NCBI RefSeq assembly: GCF_036488675.1
Contig: NZ_CP133148.1
Coordinates: 2,046,001 to 2,110,000 of the forward strand
Length of the DNA: 64,000 bases
Reading direction: 5' to 3'
Source: Sinorhizobium chiapasense
GTDB taxonomy: Bacteria > Pseudomonadota > Alphaproteobacteria > Rhizobiales > Rhizobiaceae
Shown: positions 1,856 through 63,391 of the stretch, in pieces
Position numbering within the stretch: position 1 is the stretch's first letter
Layout: each line of letters opens with the position of its first letter
Notes under the pieces: model-generated
Told to the model about the DNA's origin: nothing
Databases searched by the model: none
The model's input: only the letters and a program-made list of their open reading frames with translations
Translations under genes and position numbers: made by a program

Positions 1856-2592
1856 TGCAAGAGCTGCTTGTCTTCCAGTCGCTGTGGGCCATGGAGCGCC
1901 GGCACACGGACGGGCACGAACGCAGCCTCGACGACAACATCGCCATGATCCTGGAGGCGGGATTCGATGGTATCAGTGCGCACTACACCAACCGGCGGGA
2001 TGTCGTTCGCCTGAACGAAACCATCCAGGGCACCGGATTGAAGGTCGAAGGCGTCTGCTTCCCCCGCAGCGTCGAGGGCTTGCGCCTGCCGCTGGAGCTT
2101 GCCGCGGAATTTCCTGTCAGCCACATCAATCTGCAACCCGATATCCGCCCGCGCCGGATCGAGGATTGCCTGCCGCTCCTCGACGGATGGATGCGGCTTG
2201 CCGAAGACGCAGGCATTCCCGTGTTCATCGAAACGCATCGCGACCGGATGACCACGGATCTTTTCTTCACGCTCGACTTGCTGGAGCGGCGGCCCGAACT
2301 GCCGCTGTTGGCCGACCTCTCGCATTTTCTGGTCGGGCGGGAATTCGCTTATCCCGTCGACGAGGAGAACCATGCACTGATCCGGCGCATTCTCCGGAAT
2401 GCACAGGCGTTTCACGGCCGCGTCGCCTCGCGCGAGCAGGTGCAGGTCGAGATCTCTTTCGCGCATCACCGCCCGTGGGTCGACCTGTTTCTTGAATGGT
2501 GGGAGTACGGCTTTCGCAACTGGCGGTCCCGCGCCGCCGCTGACGCCGAACTCATCTTCACCTGCGAACTACAGCGCCGCGCGTCTTATTAG
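1855..2592 (+). CDS. Sugar phosphate isomerase/epimerase family protein, C-terminus truncated by repeat
   Basis: 245 residues of a TIM-barrel, AP-endonuclease-2/xylose-isomerase-like protein. HINLQPD, VFIETHRDR and LPLLADLSHFLVG carry the metal-ligand-type E, D and H residues of that fold. The last natural residues are ...LIFTCEL. From there the frame enters a RIME1 repeat (starting at base 2570) and ends at a TAG inside it, adding the foreign tail QRRASY. The lost end (GPKPYAITGRDGN... 39 residues) is still readable at 2675-2794. Removing the repeat and one TA rejoins the frame exactly. The metal-binding core precedes the break, so partial activity is possible but uncertain. Confidence 0.82.
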   Translation: MQELLVFQSLWAMERRHTDGHERSLDDNIAMILEAGFDGISAHYTNRRDVVRLNETIQGTGLKVEGVCFPRSVEGLRLPLELAAEFPVSHINLQPDIRPRRIEDCLPLLDGWMRLAEDAGIPVFIETHRDRMTTDLFFTLDLLERRPELPLLADLSHFLVGREFAYPVDEENHALIRRILRNAQAFHGRVASREQVQVEISFAHHRPWVDLFLEWWEYGFRNWRSRAAADAELIFTCELQRRASY

Positions 2593-2674
2593 ACGCGCAA
2601 AGGACGCTGTAGCACTTTGAATTGCTGCATGTTTTTGTCCTTAAATCGGGTACGATTTAAGGAAACATGCAGTA
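2570..2674 (+). repeat. RIME1-type repeat inserted in the isomerase gene, copy B
   Basis: A 105 bp double-hairpin element with TA at both ends (2570-2571 and 2673-2674). It interrupts the isomerase frame. Excising 103 bp and keeping one TA gives GAA CTA GGT CCC, which restores E-L-G-P and the downstream reading frame. This is direct sequence evidence for insertion with a two-base TA duplication. Confidence 0.92.
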
Positions 2675-30679: not shown

Positions 30680-30960
30680 CAGGAACCATTTGGATCAAGC
30701 CAGCCAATTGCCCGGCGAGCGAATGTAAGCGGGAATGAGCAGCGGTCATGACAACAGCCGAACTTTCCGACCTCTACCGAGGCTACATTCAGTGCCTGAA
30801 CGACCAGGATTGGCCGAACCTCGGAAAGTTCGTTCATGACGACGTTCATTACAACGGCGAGCGGATCGGGCTCTCGGGCTATCGCAAGATGCTCGAAGGC
30901 GATTTCGACGCGATACCCGACCTCTATTTCGACATCGAGCTGCTGGTGTGCGAGCCGCCC

Positions 30961-31065
30961 TACAGCGCCGCGCGTCTTATCAGACGCGCAAAGGACGCTG
31001 TAGCACTTTGAATAGCTGCATGTTTTTTTCCTTAAATCGGCTGCGATTTAAGGAAACATGCAGTG
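30961..31065 (+). repeat. RIME1-type repeat, copy G (in the SnoaL-like gene)
   Basis: 105 bp, left end TA (30961), right end TG (31064-31065), with both hairpins intact. It is nearly identical to copies A, B and H, so the insertion is probably recent. It supplies the stop codon of the truncated upstream frame (TGA at 31009). Confidence 0.92.
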
Positions 31066-31097
31066 ATTGCGAGCCGCCTGCGTTTCGACTGCACGCC

Positions 31098-31202
31098 TAC
31101 AGCGCCGCGCGTCTTATCAGACGCGCAAAGGACGCTGTAGCCCTTTGAGTTGCTGCATGTTTTTATCCTTAAATCGACTACGATTTAAGGAAACATGCAG
31201 TA
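31098..31202 (+). repeat. RIME1-type repeat, copy H (in the SnoaL-like gene)
   Basis: 105 bp with TA at both ends (31098-31099 and 31201-31202). It lies 32 bases downstream of copy G, in the same orientation, inside the same gene. Excision leaving one TA restores the T-P-R-G codons of the host gene. Confidence 0.93.
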
Positions 31203-31361
31203 GAGGCATGCTGTTTGGCCTCCCCGTCAACGGCCGGAAGGTCCGGTTCGCCGAAAATGTCTTCTACGAGCTTGTGGAGGGACGGATCGAAAGGGTCTGG
31301 TCGATCATAGACAAGGGTGCGATTGAAACTCAGCTGGGGTAGTTTCCAAAGCGACGCAACC

Positions 31362-33212: not shown

Positions 33213-33650
33213 ATGACAAGCGATAGCTTCAAAGACCCGGCCAGCTTCAAGGATCCTGCCAGCTTCAAGGATCCGGCCAGCTTCAAAGACCCGGAAAGCC
33301 TCCGGACCGCCGAAATTCTGGCGCGCTTCAACCAGGTGTTCCTCGACCACGACCCTGCGGCCCTGCAGGATCTCGTTGCCGATGATTGCGTCATCGAAAA
33401 CACCCAGCCGGCACCGGACGGCTCCCGTCATGAAGGCAAGGCAGCCTGCCTGGAGCTTTGGACGAAGATCGCCACGATGCCCGCTGCGCACTTCGAAACC
33501 GAAAGCATCATCGCGCGCGGCGATCGCGGCGAAATCCGCTGGCGGCTGATCTGGGGGCCGGAGCACCGCGATTCCGTGCGTGGGGTAAATCTCATGCGTG
33601 TGCTGAACGGCCGGATCGTGGAGGCCCAGGGATATGTGAAGAGCGGCTGA
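33213..33650 (+). CDS. NTF2-like (SnoaL-fold) protein with an N-terminal hexapeptide repeat
   Basis: 145 residues. ATG 33213 is 5 bases after GGGAGG, better spaced than ATG 33210. Residues 5-28 are four copies of SFKDP(A/E), encoded by a tandem 18-base unit. Residues ~30-145 are an NTF2-like domain (RFNQVFLDHDPAALQDLVADDCVIENTQPAPDGSRHEGKAACLELW...RWRLIWG). It lies 19 bases after the GST gene, probably in the same operon under the TetR regulator. The ligand or substrate is unknown, and the repeat looks like replication slippage. Confidence 0.82.
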   Translation: MTSDSFKDPASFKDPASFKDPASFKDPESLRTAEILARFNQVFLDHDPAALQDLVADDCVIENTQPAPDGSRHEGKAACLELWTKIATMPAAHFETESIIARGDRGEIRWRLIWGPEHRDSVRGVNLMRVLNGRIVEAQGYVKSG

Positions 33651-42557: not shown

Positions 42558-43379
42558 TCAGGCATCCTTTTTCGGCGACGGCCAGTTGTGCGTTTCGTCG
42601 GTCGCATCGCGGCACCAACGGTAGAAGGCGTCATAGAGCAGCATGCCTGCCTCGAGCTGCTCGAGGTCGTCGGCATACATCCGCGACAGGCCAAGCGATG
42701 CGGCAAGCAGGCCCGGGGCTTCCGGAGCGAGATCGAGGCGGGCTGTGTCCGCGCCGCGCACGATCGTCGCCAGCCGCAGCATCGGTTCCGTCGCAAGACC
42801 GAATTCCTCGACCATCACGTCGAAGGTGCAAAGCTCGCCCCTGTGGCTCCAGCGGATGGGCGCATCAATGTCGAAGGGGGTTGCGGCGAAACGTTCGCCG
42901 ACCATCTCGACCTCGGAAGGCGACACGTACAGGAAAACCGCCCGCGGATCGACAAAACGGCGGATCAGCCAGGGGCAGGCAATGCGGTCGATCTTCGGCC
43001 GCGCCCGCGTCACCCAGACAGTGCGTCCGCCGGCATCCCGCTCCGGTATGGCGGATACCGGCACGGCCGGATGGCCGCCCGCTGCCCAGGCCTCGAAACC
43101 GCCCTCGAGCACCTCGGCGGCAATGCCATAGTTGCGAAGCCAGGCGGCAACGCCATAGCTGAGCTTCTTGCCGCGATGGCAGATGACGACGGCGGCGTCG
43201 CTATCGATCTCCGCAGCCCAGTCCTGCACGCTGCGATAGTCGCGCCGGACCGATCCCGGCACCAGGCGCGGGTCAACCTCGAAGTCCTCGTCGATGCGGA
43301 CGTCGATGAGCGCAGGGCATTTCGGGGTGCCTATCAGGCGGGCGAGTTTGTCAGGAGAAATTTCAAGAAGTGACGACAT
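42558..43379 (-). CDS. chrB: Chromate resistance protein ChrB with N-terminal rhodanese domain
   Basis: 273 residues from ATG 43379, with CGGAGGACG upstream. Residues ~1-105 form a rhodanese domain (LIDVRIDEDFEVDP... VICHRGKKLSYGVAAWLRNYGIAAEVLEGGFEAW) with the catalytic Cys in CHRGKKLS. Residues ~120-270 form the ChrB C-terminal domain (VWVTRARPKIDRIACPWLIRRFVDPRAVFLYV). ChrB proteins regulate chrA or reduce/handle chromate. The rhodanese-led form lacks the winged-helix N-domain of regulatory ChrB, so a direct enzymatic or sulfur-transfer role is more likely (inference). Confidence 0.9.
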   Translation of the reverse strand: MSSLLEISPDKLARLIGTPKCPALIDVRIDEDFEVDPRLVPGSVRRDYRSVQDWAAEIDSDAAVVICHRGKKLSYGVAAWLRNYGIAAEVLEGGFEAWAAGGHPAVPVSAIPERDAGGRTVWVTRARPKIDRIACPWLIRRFVDPRAVFLYVSPSEVEMVGERFAATPFDIDAPIRWSHRGELCTFDVMVEEFGLATEPMLRLATIVRGADTARLDLAPEAPGLLAASLGLSRMYADDLEQLEAGMLLYDAFYRWCRDATDETHNWPSPKKDA

Positions 43380-43534
43380 GGCGCGTCCTCCGGGTGAGCG
43401 GTTGAATGGACGCGATACTTCGGCTGTCGCCTCGTGGGGTGATCGCGACCCCATGCGCGATCTTTTGCTCGCTTTGACCGGAGCTGTCAAGGCGGATCGA
43501 CCGGTCCGTCAGCGCATGAATGACCAAGGCGGCG

Positions 43535-61645: not shown

Positions 61646-63200
61646 GAGGCTGTGTGAAAACACCCGCGCATGATAGCCTACCTCGAGTTGAGCGGGAGAT
61701 TCGGCATGGCGGGTTTCATCGAGGGGAAGGACCGCCGAGAACAGTCGTTCTTGCCGGAATGCCTCGATGACTATGTCGCCGAAGACAACCCAGTCCGCGT
61801 TGTCGATGTCTTCATTGACGAACTGGACTGGAGCGGATTGGGCTTTGCAGCGCCAGCGGCGACAGGGCGGCCGGGCTATAACCCCGCGACGATGCTGAAG
61901 CTCTACCTCTATGGCTACCTCAACCAGGTGCAGTCGAGCCGACGACTGGAGCGCGAGGCGGGCCGCAACATCGAGCTGATGTGGCTGACGGGCAAGCTGG
62001 CTCCCGACTTCAAGACGATCGCTGATTTCCGGCGTGATAACGGTGAGGCGATCCGCGCCATCTGCCGCCAGTTCGTCGTGCTCTGCCGGCAGATCGGCCT
62101 CCTTGCCGGTGGCACAGTTGCGGTGGACGGCAGTCGCTTCAAGGCCGTGAACACGCGCGATAAGAACTTTACGTCCGGCGCGATCCGCCGCCGCATGGAG
62201 CAGATCGATGCCAGCATCGAGCGCTACCTGGCCCTGCTTGACACGGCCGATCGTCAGGAGGACGAGGTGGCGGAGATGCGCAGGGATCGCCTGACGGAGC
62301 GCCTCGAACGCCTGCGCCAGCAAATGCGCGATCTGAAAGCGATGGAGCGCGCCATCGAGGCAGCACCCGACCGCCAGGTCTCGCTGACCGATCCCGATGC
62401 TCGCGCCATGGCCACCAACGGCAAGGGCACCGGCCTTGTCGGCTACAACCTCCAGGCGGCGGTGGACACGAAGCATCATCTGGTCGTGGCGCATGAGGTC
62501 ACCAATGTCGGTCACGACCGCACCCAACTCGCCAGCATGGGCCAGCAAGCGAAGGAGGCGACCGGCGCGGATGAGCTGACCGTGCTGGCCGATCGCGGCT
62601 ACTTCTCGGGCGAGGAAGTGCTGGCCTGCGATGCGGCGGGCATAAAGGCCATCGTGCCGAAGTCGCTCACCTCAAGCGGCCTGAAGCGTGGCTTCTTCGG
62701 CAAGCAGGACTTCGTCTTCGACGCCGACCGGGATCTGTATGTTTGTCCGGCCGGACAGGAACTGACCAGAGGCAGGATCCGATCGGATCGCGAGTGCGAC
62801 GTCATCTTCTATCGCCATCTGACCGCCTGTTCGAGCTGCGAACTGAAGTCCCGCTGTACGCCCGAGAAGCTTCGGCGCATCCGGCGCTGGGAGCATGAGC
62901 AGGTGATCGACGCCATGCAGGCCAGGCTCGACCGCATGCCCGATGCCATGCGGGTGCGGCGGCAAACGGTCGAGCATGTCTTCGGGACCATCAAGGACTG
63001 GATGGGCCGAGGCCACTTCCTCACCCGGCGGCTCCCCAACGTCGGAACCGAGATGAGCCTCCATGTCCTCGCCTACAACCTCAAACGGGCGATCGCCATT
63101 CTCGGAGTACCGATGTTGATGAAGGCAATGAGGGCGTGAGCCCCTCAGACCGTCTGCGCGCCACCCAGATCCACGGCAGCAGGCGTTTCCACACAGCCTC
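61646..63200 (+). mobile_element. Complete IS1182-family insertion sequence
   Basis: 1555 bp. The left end GAGGCTGTGTGAAAACACCC (61646 on) matches the reverse complement of the right end, GAGGCTGTGTGGAAACGCCT (63181-63200), at about 17 of 20 positions. A 4-base direct repeat GGCG lies outside both ends (61642-61645 and 63201-63204). One transposase gene fills the element. The host site is a type-E hairpin repeat. Confidence 0.9.
61706..63139 (+). CDS. IS1182-family transposase
   Basis: 477 residues from ATG 61706, with GGGAGATTCGGC upstream. The N-terminal DUF772-type domain reads FLPECLDDYVAEDNPVRVVDVFIDELD and RPGYNPATMLKLYLYGYLNQVQSSRRLEREAGRNIELMWL. The DDE catalytic residues are in VAVDGSRFKAVN (D), VLADRGYFSGEE (D) and VEHVFGTIKDWMGRGHFLTRRL (E). 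The Cys-rich insert CSSCELKSRCTP is typical of the family. The frame is intact, so the element may be active. Confidence 0.95.
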   Translation: MAGFIEGKDRREQSFLPECLDDYVAEDNPVRVVDVFIDELDWSGLGFAAPAATGRPGYNPATMLKLYLYGYLNQVQSSRRLEREAGRNIELMWLTGKLAPDFKTIADFRRDNGEAIRAICRQFVVLCRQIGLLAGGTVAVDGSRFKAVNTRDKNFTSGAIRRRMEQIDASIERYLALLDTADRQEDEVAEMRRDRLTERLERLRQQMRDLKAMERAIEAAPDRQVSLTDPDARAMATNGKGTGLVGYNLQAAVDTKHHLVVAHEVTNVGHDRTQLASMGQQAKEATGADELTVLADRGYFSGEEVLACDAAGIKAIVPKSLTSSGLKRGFFGKQDFVFDADRDLYVCPAGQELTRGRIRSDRECDVIFYRHLTACSSCELKSRCTPEKLRRIRRWEHEQVIDAMQARLDRMPDAMRVRRQTVEHVFGTIKDWMGRGHFLTRRLPNVGTEMSLHVLAYNLKRAIAILGVPMLMKAMRA

Positions 63201-63293: not shown

Positions 63294-63391
63294 TACGGCG
63301 CCACGCGTCCTACGCGCAAAGGACGCTGTAGCACCTTGATTTGCTGCATGTTTTTGTCCTTGATCGGCTGGACCTCAAGGAACATGCAGCA
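63294..63391 (+). repeat. RIME1-type repeat, diverged copy L
   Basis: 98 bases. TACGGCGCCACGCGTCCTAC, GCGCAAAGGACGCTGTAGCA and the CTGCATG...CATGCAG hairpin are recognisable, with shortened stems. It lies between the IS and the VOC gene. The bases 63201-63293 belong to the type-E repeat split by the IS and further hairpin sequence. Confidence 0.82.

Follow-up and report, generated by a model that had tools for sequence, protein, structure and literature searches.

RIME1, the Rhizobium-specific intergenic mosaic element, was reportedly described by Osteras, Stanley and Finan in 1995 as a repeat of about 105 bp with two large palindromes. The repeat considered here is presumably RIME1, a name that follows the usual description of that element and the distribution of the repeat. 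It resembles RIME1, as commonly defined, in its length of about 105 bp, its two large palindromes (fold z −10.6 for copy G and −9.7 for copy H, the two copies described below), its many copies and their location, mostly outside genes. It differs in that two copies lie within one coding gene, and in the TA/CTAG insertion rule derived below from empty sites. The insertion sequence IS630 is said, going by the title of a 1991 paper by Tenzen and Ohtsubo, to prefer the TA in CTAG. Among 72,556 plasmid records, 467 contain the element, from Rhizobium (280), Sinorhizobium (157), Ensifer (19), Agrobacterium (8), Pararhizobium, Allorhizobium and Nitratireductor (one each); 466 of the 467 are Rhizobiaceae by genus name, so that, as far as plasmids go, the element is practically confined to this family. 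The searched passages that mention RIMEs treat them just as repeats to set aside.

Several small mobile repeats are comparable. RUP of Streptococcus pneumoniae is 107 bp long and non-coding, and has TA ends with a target duplication, with IS630-Spn1 as its proposed mobiliser in trans (PMC2229807, PMC3049150); in one of these sources, RUP does not clearly stand out from other repeats in mobility (PMC3049150). As a class, small TA-ended mobile repeats are described as mainly intergenic, with some in genes (PMC2229807). Our element has in common with RUP its size, its TA ends with target duplication and its high copy number; RUP, however, ends in 9-bp terminal inverted repeats that resemble those of its insertion sequence, whereas our element is without clear ones and no matching insertion sequence was found. 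ERIC and Correia/NEMIS are likewise small, non-autonomous repeats with TA termini and a target duplication, but they have terminal inverted repeats, whereas the two halves of our element each form a hairpin of their own (PMC2229807). The alphaproteobacterial CIR repeats of Caulobacter and Brucella also have TA termini and two independent stem-loops and no terminal inverted repeat; they differ in carrying a methylation motif and, in the same account, in not being found inside genes and in having a mobility left unexplained (PMC2229807). Insertion at TA with duplication of the TA is also known from the IS630 family, where ISY100 duplicated it in 34 of 39 products; unlike our element, these are autonomous, with their own transposase gene and different ends (PMC2170065).

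A SnoaL-family gene in three pieces

The window, that is, the whole stretch of 64,000 nucleotides analysed, lies on the 4.3-Mb contig C1, chromosomal, of a 6.87-Mb genome in five contigs from a root-nodule bacterium of the genus Sinorhizobium/Ensifer. At 30748-31342, flanked upstream by a SRAP (PF02586) gene and downstream by a DUF1801 gene, it contains a SnoaL-family (PF07366) gene in three readable pieces, separated by two hairpin-rich repeat copies, G and H:

30748-30960, plus strand: first piece of the SnoaL gene, 71 codons (MTTAELSD...LVCEPP), PF07366 match of 58.7 bits, aligned to orthologues
30960-31003, plus strand: first hairpin of copy G, from the DNA fold of 30959-31066 (−39.1 kcal/mol, z −10.6)
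30961-31063, plus strand: RIME1-like copy G, 103 nt including the left TA; left border C-TA, right border TG-A
31009-31011, plus strand: TGA stop brought by copy G, closing the frame begun at 30748
31015-31064, plus strand: second hairpin of copy G, from the same DNA fold of 30959-31066
31066-31098, plus strand: second piece of the SnoaL gene (IASRLRFDCTP), its final base being the T of the left TA of copy H, from the orthologue alignment
31098-31200, plus strand: RIME1-like copy H, 103 nt including the left TA; left border C-TA, right border TA-G; RNA fold z −9.7
31202-31342, plus strand: third piece of the SnoaL gene (RGMLFGLP...TQLG), with stop codon TAG, from the orthologue alignment

The first piece by itself (71 aa) matches the PF07366 profile with an E-value of 6.9e-16, and an orthologue from the same genus (genome G015) scores 137.3 bits against a curated cut-off of 28.4, which places the gene in the SnoaL family. 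From the original start at 30748, the frame now encodes 87 aa before reaching the in-frame TGA contributed by copy G. About 2 kb away is a second SnoaL-like gene (PF12680, 58.2 bits), with an 18-bp tandem repeat of 3.9 copies near its start (33225-33294). The sole Rfam match in the window at the gathering score is a chrB-a cis-regulatory RNA on the minus strand (43377-43457; RF03078, 80.8 bits).

Orthologues were searched by DNA in 33 genomes of the genus, our own included, and the flanks of the gene were found in nine others among the matches listed. All nine (G015, G017, G025, G026, G027, G028, G029, G031 and G032) have an uninterrupted gene, with the order EPP or DPP, L/R, I/V-ASRLRFDCTP and R/K/T-... 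matching the three pieces in the window. Seven were also aligned as DNA, G017 being left out and G025 lying in the wrong orientation. Between the E/D and I/V codons at site G, these seven have CCG, then CCC or CCT, then CTG, CGC or CTT; at site H, CCG or CCA precedes AGA, AAA or ACA; and no insertion is present at either site in any of the seven. In a broader protein search, the best 80 of 124 stretches encoding relatives, many from other genera, each gave a single match from residue 1-6 to residue 121-129, with a DNA length of three times the number of residues and no repeat inside. Within our own genome, the protein matched only two parts of the broken gene (E ≤ 0.001), with no second copy. 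Since the nine orthologues found are uninterrupted and no second copy was found in the genome, the SnoaL gene was in all likelihood broken by two independent, lineage-specific insertions.

In register, the direct repeats measure 106 nt (30959-31064 and 31096-31201), are 94% identical and lie 137 nt apart from start to start; as elements, G and H have the same orientation, are separated by 34 nt and each fold into two hairpins. The element is well below 200 bp, a 103-nt unit with its left TA, and encodes no protein of its own, only short frames crossing it. Matches to its right palindrome with at most three mismatches number 170 in the genome (95 + 75), against 0 and 0 for the reversed-pattern control. 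At G000:C5:121357-121665 of the same genome, three RIME1-like copies lie head to tail at a spacing of about 100-108 bp. Between copies G and H there are 6 differences over 103 positions, and each has three differences from the own-genome consensus, into which both were entered twice; the range for 30 own-genome copies of 103 nt is 1 to 35 differences, with 10 of the 30 at three or fewer. To judge from these differences, G and H look like independent, fairly young insertions.

The preliminary description of this locus had proposed a SnoaL-like gene cut into three by two near-identical repeats in the same orientation, an independent double insertion into one coding gene and recent mobility of the repeat. 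The alignment with orthologues that it suggested bears out the first point: continuous orthologues match all three pieces, and none of those seen carries the repeats. The absence of both copies from the nine same-genus orthologues found supports the second, and the closeness of G and H to the consensus supports the third.

At site H, the sequence CC-TA-[101 nt]-TA-GAGGC would collapse to CCTAGAGGC, which contains CTAG, is in frame and, with one TA kept, reads CCT-AGA-GGC (P-R-G). Site G, CCC-TA-[101 nt]-TG-ATT, lacks one base for the frame; G015 and G029 have CCCCTGATC there. Between the E/D and I/V codons the orthologues have three codons (9 nt), where only 8 nt of the window remain once the 103-nt unit is set aside, so that this junction has lost one base. 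Compared with the orthologues, the net gain is 102 nt at G and 103 nt at H. Both expectations of the preliminary description, that removal of H with one TA kept rejoins the frame and that the G junction needs a one-base fix, were therefore correct. An 11-nt direct repeat flanking copy G, TGCGAGCCGCC, was considered as a long target duplication and rejected, comparable stretches being in place without an insertion in relatives such as G015.

Borders and empty alleles of the element

Borders and empty sites were compared in stretches of our own genome (404 kb) and of G015 (420 kb), G029 (400 kb), G027 (280 kb), G026 and G032 (80 kb each). These six genomes gave 123 full-length copies; 34 have a nearby empty site elsewhere, 36 a filled orthologue and nine both. 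At several of the 34, divergence makes the junction unreadable, and no claim is based on these. The base preceding the unit is C in 82% of the 123 copies, the unit starts with T in 85% and A in 86%, and the bases following are T in 77%, A in 73% and G in 86%. The left border is CTA in 82 copies, the right border is TAG in 69 and both are present in 52, compared with 1 and 1 of 123 at the control offsets; the commonest borders are C-TA...TA-G.

Nine copies with these canonical borders have a gap-free relative, two of the nine being one insertion common to G015 and G029. The tetramer in the closest relative is exactly CTAG in none, one base off in seven and further away in two, while tetramers within one base of CTAG make up 4.2% of those in the genome; CTAG is present in any relative for only one of the nine. 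CTAG is strongly depleted (0.37 per kb in our own stretch, 0.33 in G015 and 0.36 in G029) and, in four comparisons among the stretches of our own genome, G015, G029 and G027, was kept in the relative at 35%, 39%, 53% and 24% of its sites. For GATC, CATG, CGAG and CTGG, 66 to 84% were kept; TTAG and TTAA (44 to 69%) and CTAC (55 to 68%) are also below average, less so than CTAG. At 19 gap-free junctions, some of them of shared insertions, the relative has the target C in 12 cases, the T in 10 and the A in 14, compared with a flank identity of 87.5%. One insertion in G015 has CGAG in three relatives, including one with 98% identity in the surrounding sequence, and site H in the relatives is CGAG, CGAA, CAAG or CGAC. 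Going by these alleles, other tetramers may be targets too, or the T may have arisen first. The weak TA signal across species (10 and 14 of 19) is partly resolved by the poor conservation of CTAG and by the strain-level sites described below; the cross-species pattern fits a target that existed only briefly.

For a comparison of strains, six S. meliloti pSymB-type plasmids were chosen among 20 of the 467 plasmid records, and three candidate loci were compared. At the first, only CCMM B554 has a copy, and 1021, Rm41, BL225C, SM11 and B401 are empty, with the sequence CCAGAC-TAGGGTG. At the second, CCMM B554, Rm41, B401, BL225C and 1021 have the copy, and SM11 is empty (AGCAC-TAGACGG); the left T of the copy is C in CCMM B554. 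This second locus could instead reflect a precise loss in SM11, for which the border rule would be the same. At both loci the empty allele is CTAG, the filled allele is C-TA-CAG...CAG-TA-G and the gain is 103 nt. The third candidate (B401 at 175250) was dropped, as only its right flank aligned to the other strains. Duplication of the target TA is thus seen in exact empty alleles at two strain-polymorphic loci, and 52 of the 123 copies have the full C-TA...TA-G borders. In the SnoaL gene, copy H fits the CTAG/TA rule and copy G does so only loosely (C-TA...TG-A, with one base missing).

These borders, together with CTAG empty alleles that have TA on both sides when filled, are the basis for likening the element to TA-duplicating miniature transposons. 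If the rule holds, the element would work like RUP, ERIC and Correia, and like IS630. No terminal inverted repeats joining its ends (CAGCGCC... and, reversed, CTGCATG...) are present, so the claim is limited to a similar way of working and does not extend to membership of that group. Terminal inverted repeats are a feature of most, not all, TA-duplicating MITE-like elements.

Candidate transposases and the origin of the double insertion

We consider it highly probable that two separate insertions of a non-autonomous two-hairpin mobile element of about 101 bp, of the RIME1 kind, broke a dispensable SnoaL gene; the element would be moved by a transposase acting in trans and directed to the TA within CTAG. 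Such a transposase would duplicate the TA on insertion, as the IS630/Tc1-mariner transposases do. Copy H would have entered the target CC-TA-GAGGC, which contains CTAG, and the expected empty site is CCTAGAGG. For copy G the target would have been CTGA-like, the missing base having been lost from it either earlier than the insertion, in its course or later, and a CTRA-like empty site is expected there.

The step from a TA in CTAG to an IS630-type transposase is an inference. IS630-type (DDE_3) genes give six matches in our own genome, four of them over the cut-off, and matches in 31 of the 33 genomes of the genus. Twelve of the 28 IS630 loci scanned have readable ends (at least 11 of 14 bases matching); they begin TA-GAGCG, TA-GAGCA or TA-CCAACG, and none of these 12 has ends like those of the element. 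Among the IS families searched, no ends matching the element were found on IS5-type and other DDE copies of our own genome either, and IS630 and IS5-type copies were therefore rejected as the autonomous partner, their ends differing from those of the element. Lone element ends form eight pairs in 1.66 Mb, with no obvious transposase between any of them by eye. Element copies do adjoin the insertion sequence loci L145, L206-L209, L213, L215, L228, L230, L233 and L237, not as their ends. In the window, a DDE_Tnp_1 transposase gene (62399-63082; 493-aa open frame) is one of three near-identical copies in the genome, and a diverged RIME1-like copy lies close to it (63294-63389).

The same two insertions could have been made by an IS5/IS427-type transposase, an unlikely reading, though the one with most in its favour after our own. 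IS870, an IS5-family element, requires CTAG. Three own-genome IS5-type (DUF4096) copies, L206, L207 and L208 (G000:C1:1775157, C5:1360753 and C1:3664122), have a CTAA start, a CTAG end and RIME-like sequence immediately alongside, as if an IS5-type element had targeted CTAG within RIME copies; the ends of the DUF4096 copies (GGTCCGTACTCAATC and similar), however, are unlike those of the element.

The possible hot spot raised in the preliminary description found no support. Two copies do lie within 240 bp of one gene, and our 404-kb chromosomal stretch has 69 copies (E ≤ 1e-8), of which 46 are full length; however, G and H are its only full-length pair less than 150 bp apart, close to the chance expectation of 0.73 such pairs under uniform scatter, with 5.9 expected if copies are confined to 12% of the sequence. 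For all copies, three pairs compare with expectations of 1.76 and 13.1. The nine orthologues found are also without any copy, which makes a true insertion hot spot in the SnoaL gene improbable. With two separate insertions, a hot spot is unnecessary: the first would have killed the gene, and the second would then have been neutral because the gene was already dead.

A single insertion followed by local duplication or gene conversion would account for two copies in the same orientation, 34 nt apart and 94% alike, but is very improbable: the 34-nt spacer is the gene's own sequence, unduplicated and at its orthologous place, and both copies have closer relatives at other places. Of the copies scored, the one most like G outside the gene is at C1:2159046 (98%) and the one most like H at C1:708648 (97%); because these matches differ, the two are not a local duplication. 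We give just as little weight to a REP/REPIN-like nature of the element, in which a RAYT (Y1) transposase would insert it without target duplication. Two palindromes, a high copy number and a mostly intergenic location would suit such a unit, and a RAYT-type locus (L053, in G006) has an element copy about 0.8 kb from the RAYT gene; yet the PF01797 search for Y1_Tnp found no RAYT/Y1 gene in our own genome and matches in only five of the 33 genomes of the genus, and TA is duplicated at the two strain-level S. meliloti sites. Repeats are prone to misassembly, but an assembly artefact is scarcely credible in a genome of five contigs, with copies that differ at six positions and a spacer of authentic gene sequence.

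Insertions in genes and the biology of the element

The SnoaL gene is not the only one affected. Copies with a junction-spanning empty site number 43, or 39 distinct by empty coordinate and 38 after merging one pair by context; neither SnoaL site is counted in the 38, since the flanks of each contain the other copy. At ten of the 38 sites, third positions account for at least 60% of the changes in a frame that spans the site. On inspection of the reading frames, seven were dropped, as the frames look spurious, the site is upstream of the likely true start or the relative itself ends in the repeat. By this crude test and inspection, three of the 38 other dated sites fall within a conserved reading frame or at its edge: codon 238 of 278 in a TIM-barrel-like gene of the window, codon 130 of 137 in a gene of G015/G029, and codon 7 of 141 in a membrane-protein gene. 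The first corresponds to this feature:

2570-2672, plus strand: further RIME1-like copy, inside another gene (1855-2794)

The G026 orthologue of gene 1855-2794 is intact (278 aa), with a weak match to the xylose-isomerase-like TIM-barrel family PF01261 (E 0.0011, below cut-off); in the window, the frame stops within the element, past the position corresponding to codon 238. The earlier characterisation of RIME elements as intergenic thus stands as a tendency and fails as a rule.

The double hit in the SnoaL gene adds a small but well-documented example to a kind of repeat already known. As an instance of gene loss it is minor; its useful part is that it led on to clean empty sites for the element. 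The new part is the insertion rule, TA within CTAG with the TA duplicated, which we did not find stated in the literature searched, most subscription papers lying outside that search. On balance, we favour the view that RIME1 is a still-mobile, transposase-dependent element of the Rhizobiaceae that targets the TA within CTAG. The scarcity and short life of CTAG would then help to explain both its mostly intergenic placement and the rarity of CTAG at occupied sites in other species, and the SnoaL gene would be a rare case in which two such sites were used in one gene. If the CTAG/TA rule holds, the RIME1 transposase becomes a defined target for searches and assays, and copies polymorphic among strains can serve as markers of recent movement in nitrogen-fixing bacteria.
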